Below are positions 20,262 to 28,253 of a DNA stretch of 64,000 bases, piece after piece. A model generated the notes under the pieces. The model ran no database searches. It was given only the letters and a program-made list of their open reading frames with translations, and was not told the DNA's origin. The stretch's first letter is position 1; the number at the start of each line of letters is the position of its first letter. The position numbers were made by a program, and so were the translations under genes. Source of the DNA: Thraustochytrium sp. TN22 (Eukaryota > Sar > Bigyra > Thraustochytrida > Thraustochytriidae); the NCBI GenBank assembly GCA_013306675.1, contig JABLUY010000117.1:1-64000 (forward strand), in the 5' to 3' direction.

Positions 20262-22047
20262 TCAGCAATAGAAACGCTTTCCGTCCATGCCCCTACCAGA
20301 CTGGACCATGAAGTCAAAACACCAGTCCGCGTCAAGAGAGACCATGGGCTTGAGACATGTCCCAGCCTCATTGCCCGTCGCGACGCCGAGCGCTGCGACG
20401 ATGCGGTCCATATTGGAGGTGAACTTGCCCACAAAACCGCTCGCGAGAACCCCCAAAATGTACACGTCGACAAGAAAGTCCGTCATCTCGCGCGTTTTGG
20501 AAAACCCTGCCTTCGTGAGCCGCGGGTCGCCGAAGAGAACGCCCTCAATGGTGATTTCATCCGTCTTGGAAGCACGCGCAAAGACATCGTAGCGACGGCG
20601 ATCCACCCGATCGTTGACGAGCCAGGTGATCTCTGGGTACTGTAGGGTAGCGTTGCGCACGACCACTGCCGAGTCTGTCGCCAGATAGACGCTGCGAAAG
20701 CCGTACGTCTTCATGAGCTCGCGGACCGAGCCCATGTAGGCCTTGAGTGGGTCGCATCGACGACCCTTCTCGTCGATTCGCGGGTCGCTGCAGGCGTCGC
20801 CAAGGCGCACGTGCAGGCCCAGAATAGGTTGGACGTCAGCCCGCTCCAGGCCGAGCGAAGCCACGACGAGGTCCACTTCGTGCTGCACCGCCCGGGAGGG
20901 CCGCAGGAGGTTCTTTAGAACCTGACCGACATTCCACATGACGCCAAGGTCCTCGTAGCCCGGCGCCGCCCTGGGGAGACGCTCGGAGCCTGTCCACTCG
21001 CCGTTGTCGTCCTGGCCGATGCGCCGCCAGGCGCCGCGCTCGCTGTCCAAGCGCGGGCCTTTGTCTTTGCGGCAGCTCGCCTGCGCATCGTCACGCTTCG
21101 CGAAGGGCTGTAGAAAGCATGCCAATGTGGCCGACCCGCAGTCCGTGCGGCTCGCCCACAGTGACTCGGGCGTCAGGAGGGCCTGCTTGGACGCCATGGC
21201 GTGCAGCAGGGGTGACACCAGGTAGTTGATGGTGCAGCCCGCGCCGCACTCGGGCGGTTCCACGTAGATTGAGCTCGTGGCGCCCCTGCAATGACGCGTC
21301 TTCTCGAAGTCACGATCGAAGCGCCGCGCCGCCTCACGCACGGAGACGGAGGCGGCTTGAGCGTCCAGGGTTGCACCCGTGACGAAGGACGTCTTGGGTC
21401 CGGACACCCGGCGAATGTGGTCGCGCGCGTCGTTGTGCAACAGGTCCCGACACATGGGCGCCCCGTCCGGGCTGGCGCTCCGCAGGATCGCGCCGTCACT
21501 CCTGGCGGAGCTTGGTCTGGAAGCGCTCTTTCCGGTGCGGTGAAAGTTCACGGCAAGGTCGGCGAGGTAGTTAGACTTGTCGCAGTACAGCGCATCAGCG
21601 CCCAGCGACCTGGAGCGCGCGCGCACGCGCAGCACGTTCGCGTTGCGCGAAGCAAGGTCAGCCACCAGGTCGTCCACCGGGCCCGATTGCATGTCGGCGC
21701 TACCTCGCACCACGGCACCCCATTCGCAATGGCTCCCCGACACATGCGCGTAAGACCAGTCGGTGAACTTGTGCACCTTGCTCTTGGGCATGTACAGCTG
21801 CACACTCAGAGACTGCACGACCAGGTCATTCTCACGGAAGAGGAAGAACCCGCCAGTCCAGTCCACGAAGCTAAAGAGCCTGCGCACATGCGGCTGCCGC
21901 CAAAAGCTCGTCTTGGTAATGAAGAAGTTGTTGTAGTACCCGTAGCTGGTGTACGTGCTGGTGGTCTTGTCCCAACAGCACTCGTCTAGAAAGCCCTCCT
22001 TGGCCCTGGCCTGCTCGCCCTTGTTGATCTGCGCCAGGTATGACGCA
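20262..22047 (-). pseudogene. 3' part of a GT15-fucosyltransferase fusion gene, cut by a transposon
   Basis: This is the C-terminal two thirds of a gene whose N-terminal part lies at 26730-27625. The first 100 residues complete a GT15 (KRE2/MNT1-type) alpha-mannosyltransferase domain: YGYYNNFFITKTSFWRQP, then VDWTGGFFLFRENDLVVQSL and KSKVHKFTDWSYAHV, matching the family's SNFEI, DRAGGFYYERWGDAPVHS and IHFFDDIGY blocks. A second luminal domain follows with GLHVRLGDACSDPRID and FRSVYLATDSAVVV, related to the domain of the gene at 17900-19933. No stop or shift is seen within this half. With the transposon in place, the nearest ATG for this frame (22094) lies inside the inserted DNA. The disrupted allele is probably not functional as a whole, though a truncated product is conceivable. 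Confidence 0.8.
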
Positions 22048-22051
22048 ATAT
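22048..22051. repeat. Target-site duplication ATAT, left copy
   Basis: ATAT at 22048-22051 and 26730-26733 flank the whole insertion. Removing the insertion and one ATAT joins the flanking gene in frame as CGC TAT ATT GCG. A 2-bp TA duplication with one more terminal base on each side fits equally. Confidence 0.8.
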
Positions 22052-22500
22052 CCCAATCCCATCGCCCTAGACGGAGTTTAATCAGGATAGCCATATCCCA
22101 ATCACACCTCTATGCTTACTCGTATCCGCCTACCACGCGGGGGTCCCTCGGTGACGCCCGGCACAGGGGGCACTAAAGCGTATTAAGAGGGTACTTTACT
22201 CCCGATTTGCTCCAAAAAAGTGGCCTAGAGTCTGGCGAAGTTAGTTCCGCATTCGATCAAAAACGCAGCGATGGGGCCGAGCTTGAAGAGGCCCACTCGA
22301 AGCGACCCAAGGCTCCTGCCCCCTATTCATTTTGGCCGAAGGCGTGGTGGTTAGGATGAGATGAGCTCGGCAGTTCGCCCAGAGCGGCTTTGGGGGGAGC
22401 TCGCGCGCGACTTCGTCGCGGAGCGCGCTGGAGCCGCAGGCGCTGCGGCGCGCGGCTGCAGGCGGCCCTGGCGGGTGCCTTGTGCCTGCTCTCAGCTCGC

Positions 22501-23165
22501 ACGCCCCTGCCGCAGCGCTTGGACGTGGAGTCGGGCCCGCACTGCGACATCATGGCATCGGCGAGGCCTAACCACCGCGTGGAGGACGACAGCGACAGCG
22601 ACAGCGACAGCGAGTTCGTGCCCCTGGACAAGCGGGACCCAGGGGACGAAGACGAAGAAGGAGAGGAGCTTGGCGACGAGGATGCTCGTGCTGAGGCCGC
22701 TGCGCAGCAAGACTTCGAAGACATACTTGCGTTGGTCGACGAACCGACGCGTGGTGCGAGTGCATGTTCGAGGTCGGCCTCATTCAGCACAAGACCGTTC
22801 CGGGGCTCGCAGTCTCGCCGGATGGAGTCGCTCGCGTCCGGCTTCCAGGCGCGGAGTGCGACGCATCGTCAGTACTATGCAGCGTCGAGATCAAGACGCG
22901 CGTCGCGCCTGGAGGCGCGGTAGACGCACGTATCGTGAGCACCCAGATGAACACGTGGGGGACGAGACTTGGTGGAAGGCCATACCTGCCGAGCACCGCG
23001 CGCAAGTCTTGCACCAAGCTGTGGTCCTCCAAATCGATCACGTGCTCTACGTTGCTGCCAGCACGAGTTCGTGTTTGTACGCCTGCCTCGTTGAAGTGCC
23101 TCCGGACGCCCGGCTCGCCATGGAGCGCGCTCTGAAACCGTGGGCGGACAAGCTCACGACATGGG
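22501..23165 (+). pseudogene. YqaJ-type PD-(D/E)xK nuclease segment of the inner transposon
   Basis: An acidic Ser/Asp/Glu leader (about 22501-22745) is followed by a segment with YqaJ/lambda-exonuclease hallmarks: GLAVSPDGV (catalytic Asp), VEIKTRV (the E-x-K pair), then WWKAIPAEHRAQVLHQAVVL with the conserved Gln. These blocks lie in three different frames, with shifts near 22750-22765 and 22935-22945 and another before 23175. The same shifts are in both copies, so they predate the pair. No convincing introns are seen at the shift points, so decay is likelier than splicing, but splicing is not excluded. YqaJ-like domains bind DNA ends and act as exonucleases in phages; a role in this element is unknown. 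Confidence 0.6.
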
Positions 23166-23174
23166 CGCACCAGA

Positions 23175-24227
23175 GCATCGACAGCGGGTGCGCCGCCCAA
23201 GCCACCTGCCATCTTCGGCGAGGAGGAGGGGGCGGTGCTGAGCTCGCACTTCCGGCTGTGGCGCGCCATGCGCAAGCTTGTCGCTCTGAAGGGGCCCATG
23301 CGGCCCGTGCATGTCATCAAGTGCTTACCGCAGGAGCTATACAACGTCGCAAAGGGCGGCGTCGACGGAAGCACACAGTACGTGGAGCAGATCACCAACA
23401 CGCAGTGCATGAATCTGAGCTGCGACCAGAACATCGCGTTGCGCACGTACAAGCAGCTCGTTGTCAACGCCATCGTGGTCTACCGCTACTTACAGGCTGC
23501 GAGGAAGAGCAACCTCGAAGACAGCGACGGGCTAAAGGCCCTCCGCGACAAGGTGAACCGCTCTGAAGCGCTCAGCACTGTCTCGTTCCGCCTCACTGTC
23601 GACATGGTCCGTCACGTCTACAGGAGCAGGCAGCTCGATACGGCGCAGGTGGAGTTCAACATGCAGCCAAGCATGCCCAAGCCCACTGGGCTCACCAGGG
23701 AAGCGGCGAGGGACCTCGTGACCGCCGGTAAGCGCAAGCGAACCCCCGAGTTGCAGAAGTTCTTCAACCACGGCCAAGCCCGCGACATCCGCCTCGATGC
23801 CGCACTGCAACATGACTCAGAGGCAGCGGGAAAGGCATCCTTCAACGCCAACAACAAGAGGATTCCCGCCAAGCGGCTCTGCGTCATCTGCGGCAAGCAA
23901 ACGCACCGTCGTTGCACCATCTGCGGTGTGCCTCTGCACGTGTTCATGAGAAAGAATGAACGCACAACCTGCTTTTCCAAGTGGCACACGCGCGTGCGCG
24001 TCGAGCCTCACGAAGGCTTCAAGAAGCGCAAGACAAACGTCAACGGAACACCTTCGCCCATTTGCCTCGATCATGTCGATTCGAGCAGCGCCAGTGCCTC
24101 GTCCGGTACCCCTACAGCGCAGAGCAGGAACGACCACGTAGCCCAAGCCAGCTACACCGACACCCCATCAAGCCATAGTTCAAGATCCTCTCGCAGCAGC
24201 CTCAGCACGAGTCCATCGTGCCCTTGA
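23175..24227 (+). CDS. piggyBac-type transposase C-terminal segment with cysteine-rich finger (inner copy)
   Basis: An open frame of about 350 residues whose first part reads GAPPKPPAIFGEEEGAVLSS, with no initiating ATG of its own before 23268. It contains LPQELYNVAKGGVDGSTQY, the YN..MGGVD block that carries the last catalytic Asp of piggyBac (DDE_Tnp_1_7) transposases. This is followed by a helix with NAIVVYRYLQ, like the NAYILY segment of the family. The C-terminus has a zinc-binding pattern CVICGKQ...CTICGVPL...CF.KWH, like the piggyBac cysteine-rich domain that reads terminal DNA. The upstream two thirds of a normal piggyBac catalytic core, with the first two Asp residues, is not visible in the 2.3-kb element. 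The copy is therefore probably moved in trans. Confidence 0.65.
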   Translation, partial: ASTAGAPPKPPAIFGEEEGAVLSSHFRLWRAMRKLVALKGPMRPVHVIKCLPQELYNVAKGGVDGSTQYVEQITNTQCMNLSCDQNIALRTYKQLVVNAIVVYRYLQAARKSNLEDSDGLKALRDKVNRSEALSTVSFRLTVDMVRHVYRSRQLDTAQVEFNMQPSMPKPTGLTREAARDLVTAGKRKRTPELQKFFNHGQARDIRLDAALQHDSEAAGKASFNANNKRIPAKRLCVICGKQTHRRCTICGVPLHVFMRKNERTTCFSKWHTRVRVEPHEGFKKRKTNVNGTPSPICLDHVDSSSASASSGTPTAQSRNDHVAQASYTDTPSSHSSRSSRSSLSTSPSCP

Positions 24228-24388
24228 TGCAGCCCAAGTTGGCCTCAGCATCCGCACAGGCCAGTCGGAAGTGACCAACACTTTACGCTTCCATACAAAC
24301 CCAGTAGTTGAAAGTTCCAAAAATGATTAGAATCATGATAGCAACAGGTCAGTCGAGCGCAAGCAGGAGAGCCGATTTACTAGGGATA

Positions 24389-24437
24389 ATATGGCTATCC
24401 TGATTAAACTCCGTCTAGGGCGATGGGATTGGGATAT
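24389..24437. repeat. 49-bp palindrome loop duplicating the left terminal piece
   Basis: The loop is the reverse complement of the segment at 22048-22096. It is the terminal 45 bp of the inner element plus its flanking ATAT, while 22052-22096 is the same terminal 45 bp of the outer element. This is what separates a nested insertion from a simple fold-back duplication. Confidence 0.85.
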
Positions 24438-24598
24438 TATCCCTAGTAAATCGGCTCTCCTGCTTGCGCTCGACTGACCTGTTGCTATCATGATTCTAAT
24501 CATTTTTGGAACTTTCAACTACTGGGTTTGTATGGAAGCGTAAAGTGTTGGTCACTTCCGACTGGCCTGTGCGGATGCTGAGGCCAACTTGGGCTGCA

Positions 24599-25651
24599 TC
24601 AAGGGCACGATGGACTCGTGCTGAGGCTGCTGCGAGAGGATCTTGAACTATGGCTTGATGGGGTGTCGGTGTAGCTGGCTTGGGCTACGTGGTCGTTCCT
24701 GCTCTGCGCTGTAGGGGTACCGGACGAGGCACTGGCGCTGCTCGAATCGACATGATCGAGGCAAATGGGCGAAGGTGTTCCGTTGACGTTTGTCTTGCGC
24801 TTCTTGAAGCCTTCGTGAGGCTCGACGCGCACGCGCGTGTGCCACTTGGAAAAGCAGGTTGTGCGTTCATTCTTTCTCATGAACACGTGCAGAGGCACAC
24901 CGCAGATGGTGCAACGACGGTGCGTTTGCTTGCCGCAGATGACGCAGAGCCGCTTGGCGGGAATCCTCTTGTTGTTGGCGTTGAAGGATGCCTTTCCCGC
25001 TGCCTCTGAGTCATGTTGCAGTGCGGCATCGAGGCGGATGTCGCGGGCTTGGCCGTGGTTGAAGAACTTCTGCAACTCGGGGGTTCGCTTGCGCTTACCG
25101 GCGGTCACGAGGTCCCTCGCCGCTTCCCTGGTGAGCCCAGTGGGCTTGGGCATGCTTGGCTGCATGTTGAACTCCACCTGCGCCGTATCGAGCTGCCTGC
25201 TCCTGTAGACGTGACGGACCATGTCGACAGTGAGGCGGAACGAGACAGTGCTGAGCGCTTCAGAGCGGTTCACCTTGTCGCGGAGGGCCTTTAGCCCGTC
25301 GCTGTCTTCGAGGTTGCTCTTCCTCGCAGCCTGTAAGTAGCGGTAGACCACGATGGCGTTGACAACGAGCTGCTTGTACGTGCGCAACGCGATGTTCTGG
25401 TCGCAGCTCAGATTCATGCACTGCGTGTTGGTGATCTGCTCCACGTACTGTGTGCTTCCGTCGACGCCGCCCTTTGCGACGTTGTATAGCTCCTGCGGTA
25501 AGCACTTGATGACATGCACGGGCCGCATGGGCCCCTTCAGAGCGACAAGCTTGCGCATGGCGCGCCACAGCCGGAAGTGCGAGCTCAGCACCGCCCCCTC
25601 CTCCTCGCCGAAGATGGCAGGTGGCTTGGGCGGCGCACCCGCTGTCGATGC
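24599..25651 (-). CDS. piggyBac-type transposase C-terminal segment (outer copy)
   Basis: Mirror image of the segment at 23175-24227 and identical in protein sequence as far as I can compare, including YNVAKGGVD and the CVIC...CTIC...CF.KWH finger. It belongs to the outer, older insertion. Confidence 0.65.
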   Translation of the reverse strand, partial: ASTAGAPPKPPAIFGEEEGAVLSSHFRLWRAMRKLVALKGPMRPVHVIKCLPQELYNVAKGGVDGSTQYVEQITNTQCMNLSCDQNIALRTYKQLVVNAIVVYRYLQAARKSNLEDSDGLKALRDKVNRSEALSTVSFRLTVDMVRHVYRSRQLDTAQVEFNMQPSMPKPTGLTREAARDLVTAGKRKRTPELQKFFNHGQARDIRLDAALQHDSEAAGKASFNANNKRIPAKRLCVICGKQTHRRCTICGVPLHVFMRKNERTTCFSKWHTRVRVEPHEGFKKRKTNVNGTPSPICLDHVDSSSASASSGTPTAQSRNDHVAQASYTDTPSSHSSRSSRSSLSTSPSCP

Positions 25652-25661
25652 TCTGGTGCGC

Positions 25662-26325
25662 CCATGTCGTGAGCTTGTCCGCCCACGGTTTCAGAGCGCG
25701 CTCCATGGCGAGCCGGGCGTCCGGAGGCACTTCAACGAGGCAGGCGTACAAACACGAACTCGTGCTGGCAGCAACGTAGAGCACGTGATCGATTTGGAGG
25801 ACCACAGCTTGGTGCAAGACTTGCGCGCGGTGCTCGGCAGGTATGGCCTTCCACCAAGTCTCGTCCCCCACGTGTTCATCTGGGTGCTCACGATACGTGC
25901 GTCTACCGCGCCTCCAGGCGCGACGCGCGTCTTGATCTCGACGCTGCATAGTACTGACGATGCGTCGCACTCCGCGCCTGGAAGCCGGACGCGAGCGACT
26001 CCATCCGGCGAGACTGCGAGCCCCGGAACGGTCTTGTGCTGAATGAGGCCGACCTCGAACATGCACTCGCACCACGCGTCGGTTCGTCGACCAACGCAAG
26101 TATGGCTTCGAAGTCTTGCTGCGCAGCGGCCTCAGCACGAGCATCCTCGTCGCCAAGCTCCTCTCCTTCTTCGTCTTCGTCCCCTGTGTCCCGCTTGTCC
26201 AGGGGCACGAACTCGCTGTCGCTGTCGCTGTCGCTGTCGTCCTCCACGCGGTGGTTAGGCCTCGCCGATGCCATGATGTCGCAGTGCGGGCCCGACTCCA
26301 CGTCCAAGCGCTGCGGCAGGGGCGT
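25662..26325 (-). pseudogene. YqaJ-type nuclease segment of the outer transposon
   Basis: Mirror image of 22501-23165 with the same three-frame arrangement. It carries the two coding substitutions relative to the inner copy (Thr for Pro and Ala for Asp in the acidic leader). Confidence 0.6.
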
Positions 26326-26729
26326 GCGAGCTGAGAGCAGGCACAAGGCACCCGCCAGGGCCGCCTGCAGCCGCGCGCCGCAGCGCCTGCGGCTCCAGCG
26401 CGCTCCGCGACGAAGTCGCGCGCGAGCTCCCCCCAAAGCCGCTCTGGGCGAACTGCCGAGCTCATCTCATCCTAACCACCACGCCTTCGGCCAAAATGAA
26501 TAGGGGGCAGGAGCCTTGGGTCGCTTCGAGTGGGCCTCTTCAAGCTCGGCCCCATCGCTGCGTTTTTGATCGAATGCGGAACTAACTTCGCCAGACTCTA
26601 GGCCACTTTTTTGGAGCAAATCGGGAGTAAAGTACCCTCTTAATACGCTTTAGTGCCCCCTGTGCCGGGCGTCACCGAGGGACCCCCGCGTGGTAGGCGG
26701 ATACGAGTAAGCATAGAGGTGTGATTGGG

Positions 26730-26733
26730 ATAT
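26730..26733. repeat. Target-site duplication ATAT, right copy
   Basis: Partner of 22048-22051; host gene sequence resumes at 26734. Confidence 0.8.
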
Positions 26734-27625
26734 AGCGCTGCCGGAAGCCTTCATCGCAGCATGGCTCAAAAGCGTCCACGCGGTACGCGTATTCGAGCCC
26801 ACGGGCGCGCATAAAAGCGAAGAGGTCGTAGCCAATCGGCGAGAGCAGCTGCGAGTCCTCGTCCATGCGCATCACGTACGTGTAGCCGAGCTGCCCCACG
26901 AACTCGAAAAGACGGCCAGCGTACCAGCGGCACATGTGCCGATAGCCTTCGCTGAAGCCGTCATCGGTCCATCTCGTGGCGTCTGCGCGGTCCAAGAACC
27001 CGGGCAGCTCCCAATACCGGGAGCCCTGCGGGATCTCGACCAAATAGATCTCCTTGCGCTCACCTTGACGACGCAAGCGTGACTCGTCGGCGGCCGAGAA
27101 GTCTCCTGTATGGAAGATGAGCACGTCCTGCCGGTACTGCGAGTTGTAATTCGCGTACAGCAGATCGAGCGAGTGCTCCAGCATCGCGAGGCTGTCCCGC
27201 TGATATGAAGAGTGCCGCTTCTGGGCGAGGTAAACAATGCAGCCCAGCCGGTCCGGCAGAGGCCTTGCGATGCGCGCGTTGATGGCGCCGAAGTCAACGC
27301 TCACCTTGGCGCTGTGGCCGCAGCCTTCTGGGGGCACCTCCAGCAGCCCTTGCTCGAAGACTGCGTCCACGGCTCGAGCGACGGCGCCCGCTCGGTCCCT
27401 GACGTGCACTGCGGAAAACCGCTCATCGCACGCTGCTGCGCTCACCGGTACGCCCGCTCGCCGGAGCCCGGCGCTGCCCGCCTCGGTCGTGCTGCGCACA
27501 GTCTCGCGCTCCTCGCGCAGCGACGGCAGCAGCACCATCACTTGCACCATGGCCACCGCTACCAGCGCTGCAGCCAACAGCAGCAGCGCCAGCCTCCGCC
27601 GCGGCCGCCGCCCTTTGCCGCACAT
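26730..27625 (-). pseudogene. 5' part of the transposon-cut GT15-fucosyltransferase fusion gene
   Basis: The ATG at 27625 begins an Arg-rich tail and a transmembrane anchor (LALLLLAAALVAVAMVQVMV), then a GT15-type mannosyltransferase N-terminal half: KRHSSYQRDSLAMLEHSLDL, then GYRHMCRWYAGRLFEFVGQL and YTYVMRMDEDSQL, matching the SYRHMCRF.SG and YWR.EPD blocks of KRE2/MNT1 enzymes. GT15 enzymes add alpha-1,2-mannose from GDP-mannose in the Golgi. The 896 nt here plus the 1,786 nt at 20262-22047 give exactly 894 codons with no stop, so the gene was whole until the insertion. In the present DNA this half reads 19 codons into the transposon and stops at 26672. Confidence 0.8.
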
Positions 27626-28253
27626 CGTCGCAGCGGCAGCCGCTGCCGCCGCCGCGCGCGACGACGGACTCTCAGAGGCGAGTTCACCAACGAGACGATC
27701 CCGCTTTGCCGCGTCCTCGCCGCGCGCAACGCTTCTTCATCGAACCTCGAATCAGCCTGCCAGTGAGCAACACGCCAAAATAAAGTAATAACAGAATGCC
27801 TCGGCTCCCGCGCCGTGGCAGCATCGAGCGTGTTGGTGGTCTTGTGTCCTGCAGACTTTCTCCATGAAGCGGTCAGCGTCTTGAATGCGAGCCCGAGAAG
27901 CTTGCACCGCGAACCACCTCTCACGCAGTGCTTGCATCGCATCGCATCGCATCGCATCGCATCGCATCGCATCGCATCGCATCGCATCGCATCGCATCGC
28001 ATCGCATCGCATCGCATCGCATCTCGCATCACATAGCATAGCATCCACTTGGAGATGTCACTCTGCGAAGATCCGTTCGACCCATGGCTTGCTAGCTCGT
28101 GCTCAACCTGGAGTACGGTCCGCACGCGCTTTTGGCGCAATGGCCTCGGCATCAGCGGCAGCGTCAGCATCGTGGCCAGCTCCAGGAGCAGCGCCGACAT
28201 CTGCATCGGCATCAGCATCGGCGGTATCGACGGCGCGAGGAGGGACAGCCGCC
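27626..28253. promoter_or_regulatory. Divergent intergenic region with GCATC repeat
   Basis: About 630 bp between the disrupted glycosyltransferase (minus) and SPEF2 (plus). It contains a GCATC pentamer array and probably both promoters. The open frame that runs from about 27885 into SPEF2 through the array encodes a repeated Ile-Ala-Ser-His-Arg unit and is not accepted as coding. Confidence 0.5.
27934..28030. repeat. GCATC pentanucleotide tandem repeat
   Basis: About eighteen perfect ATCGC/GCATC units in tandem, 220 bp upstream of the proposed SPEF2 start. Confidence 0.95.

Follow-up and report, generated by a model that had tools for sequence, protein, structure and literature searches.

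Nested insertion of a Thraustochytrium transposon into its own copy and recurrence of such insertions beside the element's ends

In a 64,000-nucleotide stretch of the Thraustochytrium sp. TN22 genome (contig JABLUY010000117.1, positions 1 to 64,000; hereafter, the window), a 2,337-bp transposon interrupts a glycosyltransferase gene and is itself interrupted by a second, inverted copy of the same element. Insertion of the element close to its own end is recurrent in this genome and is commoner than random target choice would give, a result that goes beyond the earlier note on this DNA, which described the palindrome in the window alone. The overall explanation that we favor, with a probability of roughly three in four, is that of a cut-and-paste transposon nested by two insertions, with copies steered to ATAT tetranucleotides beside resident ends. 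The two successive insertions in the window are the firmest part of it and very likely correct; the odds on active end-directed targeting are about even.

From old genomic copies it is difficult to infer how transposons choose their targets and whether they favor or shun elements of their own kind. The genome studied here offers more than 100 near-identical copies with one diagnostic self-site each, together with empty sites and longer coding relatives, and thus makes self-directed insertion directly testable. A simple way in which a transposon could give rise to long palindromes and short tandem repeats is suggested as well; if steering by the element's own ends is true, the element would seed its own satellite.

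Structure of the nested insertion

Re-derivation of the geometry to the base confirmed that both copies are exactly 2,337 bp long and that the outer one is split into 45 + 2,292 bp, as the earlier note had it (Table 1). ATAT stands at 4/4 insertion boundaries, and the ends are CCCAATC and GATTGGG. The near-perfect palindrome was returned by a repeat scan as inverted arms at 22090-24400 and 24426-26736 (2,311 nt, rounded identity 100%). The two differences between the arms that had been reported are the only ones, at element positions 543 (window 22639 / 26187) and 625 (window 22721 / 26105). Compared with the consensus of 57 ungapped fetched copies, the inner copy has a single mismatch, at position 543. 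The 2,292-bp arm has at least 58 matches in the same genome, which excludes a chance origin of the arms.

The flanks of the outer copy do not mirror each other. Joined over one ATAT, they give a single open stretch (898 codons in the joined piece); hence the two flanks belong together, with a coding frame broken by the insertion.

Recurrent self-insertion

The genome assembly searched comprises 37.9 Mb in 453 contigs. The short form was listed 112 times by a search with a protein fragment (a suspect copy at C37 counted in), and 40 stretches holding 58 large copies (L009-L048) were fetched. The sole ATAT of the consensus (2293-2296) lies 45 bp from the right end; about 1.6 are expected per element, and a single occurrence is ordinary. 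Counted by exact pattern over the whole genome, intact self-sites number 99 and insertion junctions 13 (inner) and 25 (outer), C37 included. Judged by the spacings of short copies, there are seven direct nests, six inverted ones (C37 among them), three tandems with one common duplication, and ten other close pairs. Nests outside the window also lie at C46, C52, C133, C233 and C325. The nest at C177 is three copies deep; further nests at C11, C423 and C429 and two in C426 were identified by position only. Left flanks from 13 sampled loci matched in full only their own locus, with weaker or partial matches at C37, C177, C99 and C105. The self-site is also carried by the longer relatives described below (C81, C109, C394 and C33).

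Self-insertion was found at two CTAT sites as well, one at position 14 (L047) and the other at position 2299 (L037), where the center is inverted relative to a simple nest. No insertions were seen among the fetched copies at the internal CTAT sites 227, 779 and 1241 or at ATAG 2079 and 2242.

Short copies lying within 12 kb of each other on the same contig form 26 pairs, 24 of which are nested or abutting, the copies being separated by no more than about 50 bp, made up of end unit or target bases (23/25 without C37); on unfetched contigs these gaps were inferred from spacings equal to those of fetched cases. Under a null model of uniform local hopping over 10 kb, 24/26 has a probability of about 2.5e-10. 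For a test against random use of ATAT we counted 13 self-hits, namely the 12 exact inner junctions other than C37 and the one at C325, which has a changed base in the junction; longer copies were left out. About 0.8-1.1 self-hits are expected, and the probability is 4e-12 to 1.4e-10 for at least 13 and 2e-6 to 2e-5 for at least eight. The earlier note had left it open whether chance, ATAT or subterminal DNA accounts for the insertion point. The genome-wide counts favor ATAT combined with nearness to the element end, a preference that selection could mimic.

Target duplications

A search for further copies with comparison of their flanks, as proposed in the earlier note, revealed copies standing alone at other sites with 4-bp flanks. 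Of 38 loci tabulated (L029 and L033 omitted), 30 have identical outer 4-bp flanks: 23 ATAT, three ATAG, three ATAA and one CTAT. At C79, a repeat carries the element at two places, and six uninterrupted relatives of this repeat were found by position. At the first site, TTAT flanks the C79 copy on both sides and is single in the C125 relative. At the second site this relative reads ATATTATAT, which holds two ATATs and can explain why the C79 array has ATATTATAT between its copies; the third copy of the array perhaps came via recombination. Our own prediction for the empty form of this second site, a single ATAT, was wrong.

Short 45-bp units

Outer junctions outnumber inner ones by 12 (25 versus 13). 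Two loci (L017 and L030) consist of a complete copy with an additional 45-bp right end, and one outer junction follows a longer copy at C81. At C189:36769-36879 a self-site precedes two outer junctions spaced by 45 bp, in a copy with two extra right-end units, an arrangement that is a possible seed of a satellite. At L019 (C177) and at C431:172482-174457 a minus copy, a 45-bp unit and a plus copy follow each other without the remaining outer element; the C431 case is known by spacing only, and the sampled C177 left flank has no match to C431. Recombination between the arms of direct nests, composite movement using the inner left and the outer right end, or assembly collapse would all fit the 45-bp units.

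Copy identity and assembly quality

Among the fetched copies, excluding the first copy of L032 with its indel, 44/57 are identical to the consensus; the total is 34 substitutions over 132,299 bp. Mismatches are present in 0/25 solitary copies versus 13/32 clustered ones (P 2.1e-4, copies split by eye). By eye, 2/34 substitutions are transitions and 32/34 transversions (P 1.6e-4 against one-third transitions). As the substitutions are confined to clustered copies and are mostly transversions, the two differences between the window arms are probably assembly errors, and the same sequence pattern suggests that most of the 34 substitutions, these two included, are probably errors of sequencing or assembly. 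The perfect identity of solitary copies was possibly improved by the assembler. Our first reading, that copy identity marks a recent burst, was set aside, because the mismatches sit in clustered copies and assembler collapse is equally likely.

At C37 (L041, C37:46600-54000) a nest with many mismatches in its second copy lies between flanking stretches of 1,276 bp that are mirror images at 99.2%. No such match was found at the 11 other clusters tested for flank mirroring. An array at C111 contains an N gap.

As a separate observation, C79:18099-18799 and C426:121949-122649 share 701 bp with two insertion junctions within, from which it would appear that part of the genome is duplicated or that both haplotypes were assembled.

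Proposed mechanism and its alternatives

We propose that the element is a class II DNA transposon of the cut-and-paste type, with terminal inverted repeats of 7 bp and with 4-bp target duplications, for the most part of ATAT. On this view the outer copy would have entered an ATAT of the glycosyltransferase gene in minus orientation; a second copy, in the opposite orientation, would then have entered the only ATAT of the outer copy, 45 bp from its right end. Because ATAT is palindromic, both orientations of insertion are possible, and both are found. The protein that the longer form encodes may mobilize the 2,337-bp form. Incoming copies could be steered to the ATAT beside resident ends, perhaps through capture by transposase bound there: the motif CTAGGG occurs both next to the internal ATAT (2284) and close to the terminus (2319), so that transposase bound to it could capture an incoming copy.

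Several points weigh against this explanation. As to the window and the assembly, a search of this assembly for an empty allele of the window site yielded none; mismatches are concentrated in clustered copies, so some nests may be artefacts; and the C37 locus is a fold-back that is itself probably an assembly artefact. Outer flank pairs are mismatched at 8/38 loci, six of them with ATAT on one side, which may reflect donor bases carried over or one side overwritten by the assembler. Recombination could multiply arrays without fresh insertions. As to targeting, the density of ATAT outside the element, 0.32-0.42 per kb, comes from about 66 and 59 kb only. If only 20% of outside ATATs tolerate an insertion, the probability rises to between 2e-4 and 3e-3 for 13 hits and to 0.05-0.17 for eight, so purifying selection could account for much of the bias. 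AT-rich context is, with selection, the chief competitor of targeting: the guanine-plus-cytosine (GC) fraction is 0.42 around the self-site versus 0.61 at 25 other ATATs of the window, and used targets lie in AT-rich contexts (mean GC 0.515).

The reality of the palindrome can be doubted in two ways. An assembler that walked through a second copy could have made a palindrome out of a single minus insertion; the same outer junctions are expected from a single insertion, the mismatches of clustered copies and the few transitions resemble read error, and the fold-back at C37 and the gap at C111 point the same way. However, the inner junction is present at 12 exact places other than C37, the sampled left flanks represent distinct loci, direct nests, which are not palindromic, are as common as inverted ones, and the window flanks are unmirrored, which together make an artefact improbable. 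Fold-back duplication of one inserted copy would suit the palindromic shape, and the assembly does contain a fold-back, at C37. We consider it hardly credible here, since both copies have their full 2,337 bp and an ATAT pair apiece and the unmirrored host flanks rejoin as one gene. The conclusion of the earlier note, two successive insertions and no fold-back duplication, is upheld by these flanks together with the solitary copies with 4-bp flanks and the empty paralogous site.

Granted two insertions, clustering does not have to mean targeting. If insertion at ATAT were random and selection purged the others, resident copies would survive as harmless landing places, and the enrichment is indeed borderline when at least 80% of other ATATs are taken as unavailable and only eight events are counted. 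This reading is possible, if somewhat doubtful: the insertion in the window has itself hit a coding frame, the internal CTAT and ATAG sites, presumably equally harmless, are unhit in the fetched copies, and close neighbors in ordinary DNA are few. The 26 short-copy pairs within 12 kb could also point to general local hopping, in which a copy reinserts near its donor site. Yet ordinary DNA separates the copies in just 2/26 pairs, at C79 and C426, which share the 701-bp sequence, and after these the closest pair is separated by 16.6 kb; hops of less than about 50 bp are the same thing as end-directed insertion, and local hopping in the general sense seems quite improbable. ATAT on both sides of a copy would likewise result from the action of a site-specific recombinase on a circle; Pfam recognized no such domain in the pieces read. 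For the preference, the target motif together with closeness to a resident end is the explanation that we consider best.

Coding capacity and longer relatives

Table 1. Features of the nested insertion and of the interrupted gene, in window positions
Feature	Positions	Strand	Remarks
Host gene, downstream part	20262..22047	-	Glyco_transf_15 profile 248-324, then FUT8-like match
ATAT, left target duplication of outer copy	22048..22051	.	Pairs with ATAT 26730-26733
Outer copy, right-terminal 45 bp	22052..22096	-	Element 2337 to 2293; last bases ATAT 22093-22096
Inner copy, complete	22097..24433	+	2,337 bp, CCCAATC...GATTGGG
Segment matching part of the 998-codon frame of longer relatives	22764..23194	+	Split over two frames here
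330-codon frame, inner copy	23235..24227	+	C-terminal remnant of element protein; KGGVD motif and Cys/His cluster by eye
Unoccupied self-site, sole ATAT of inner copy	24389..24392	.	Element 2293-2296
ATAT, right target duplication of inner copy	24434..24437	.	Within outer copy
Outer copy, other 2,292 bp	24438..26729	-	Element 2292 to 1; 1 mismatch (position 625) to consensus
Mirror of 330-codon frame, outer copy	24599..25591	-	
ATAT, right target duplication of outer copy	26730..26733	.	
Host gene, upstream part	26734..27625	-	Glyco_transf_15 profile 32-214

Four longer relatives of the element were found, three with a 998-codon frame (C81, C109 and C394) and one with a 339-codon frame (C33). 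The distance from the start of the shared segment to the self-site is 1,635 bp in all four versus 1,616 bp in the window copy; the net difference of 19 bp is in keeping with the split frame of the short form. In addition, 979 bases that precede the shared part in L053 are missing from the short form. Thus, short copies with a split frame share sequence with coding relatives, as non-autonomous elements do, and on this comparison the 2,337-bp form of the window is probably non-autonomous. A further relative, at C239, has 54% identity over the query. No relatives were confirmed among the viral contigs and prokaryote genomes searched.

By eye, the translation of L053 reads as DDE-like and, further on, as YqaJ-like. 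A 350-aa piece of the longer form matched DDE_Tnp_1 with E=0.019 (15.2 bits, below the cut-off of 23) and an IS4-type NCBIfam model at the sub-threshold level of E=0.06, and a PDB sequence search with it gave no match. The 330-codon frame has weak matches only in Pfam and PDB and none in NCBIfam; for the Cys/His cluster Pfam gave only a weak match, to zf-RING_16 (E=0.29). Five weak PDB matches of the C-terminal frame (E at least 0.68, among them a TnsB and retroviral zinc knuckles) were judged to be chance. A single-sequence structure model of the 363-aa C-terminal frame, with a mean pLDDT (predicted local distance difference test score) of 35.8, was unusable and set aside.

Two observations concern the neighborhood of the element. 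The combination of Glyco_transf_15 with a FUT8-like match in one frame (window 20262-27625, minus strand) looks unusual to us. A short tandem repeat at about 27885-28030, where a 1,289-codon frame starts, reads RIASHRIASH and DAMRCDAMRC in frames on opposite strands.

Comparison with known systems

The terminal inverted repeats of the element are 7 bp long (CCCAATC; 9/10 of the first base pairs agree), and its target duplication, at 4 bp, is of fixed length, as in class II DNA transposons with such termini. Among known families, piggyBac transposons also have ends that begin with CCC and end with GGG, and they likewise duplicate a 4-bp AT-rich target. The piggyBac target is TTAA (PMC5199201), whereas the element uses ATAT and also ATAG, ATAA, CTAT and TTAT; its own TTAA sites at 87 and 2308 bear no insertion among the fetched copies. 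The piggyBac transposase profile PF13843 (DDE_Tnp_1_7) had no match at the element in a genome scan and none in the two protein pieces read. As to the cysteine-rich domain at the C terminus of piggyBac proteins, the candidate to set beside it here is the Cys/His cluster read by eye. Elsewhere in the genome its cut-off is exceeded at C398, C16 and C76 (L049-L051), and comparison of the frames at L049-L052 with the two element pieces gave only noise. Tandem arrays are common to the element and to coral miniature inverted-repeat transposable elements linked to piggyBac-like elements, where they are attributed to replication slippage (PMC2872659).

In ISL2EU elements of the PHIS superfamily, a YqaJ protein accompanies a DDE protein (PMC4482050); the YqaJ-like segment of the longer form here is a motif reading by eye. 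The Pfam YqaJ profile PF09588 matched only C78 in the genome and nothing in the element pieces read. ISL2EU elements mostly have two open reading frames and make a 2-bp duplication (A|AT|T), in contrast to the single 998-codon frame and the 4-bp duplication of our element. Rather than AT within AATT, it is TTAT that is duplicated here, being single in the empty relative.

Self-directed insertion is known from other systems. IS30 has a dual choice of targets, hot spots or sites beside its own inverted repeats; the latter are exclusively junctions of the left and right inverted repeats (IRL-IRR), and its movement is copy-out-paste-in (PMC9333248). The element resembles IS30 in inserting beside its own ends and differs from it in inserting in both orientations, with a 4-bp target that lies either 45 bp in from the end or at the flanking duplication. 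piggyBac autointegrates at TTAA within its own sequence (PMC3952818). In autointegration of Sleeping Beauty and piggyBac, one excised molecule attacks itself, whereas here a copy lies within another complete copy, repeatedly at one site. P-element constructs self-insert (PMC4744444), and non-nested arrays are known from Mutator-like elements (PMC5907723). Among the papers listed by the literature searches, no title or abstract opening describes the element. We tentatively raise the possibility that it represents a lineage outside the families tested. Such a lineage would combine a 4-bp ATAT duplication, one long protein (DDE, a YqaJ-like nuclease, and a KGGVD/zinc tail by eye) and integration steered by its own ends, with copies that lodge in one another, build palindromes and tandem arrays and leave behind 45-bp units, seeding a satellite of their own.

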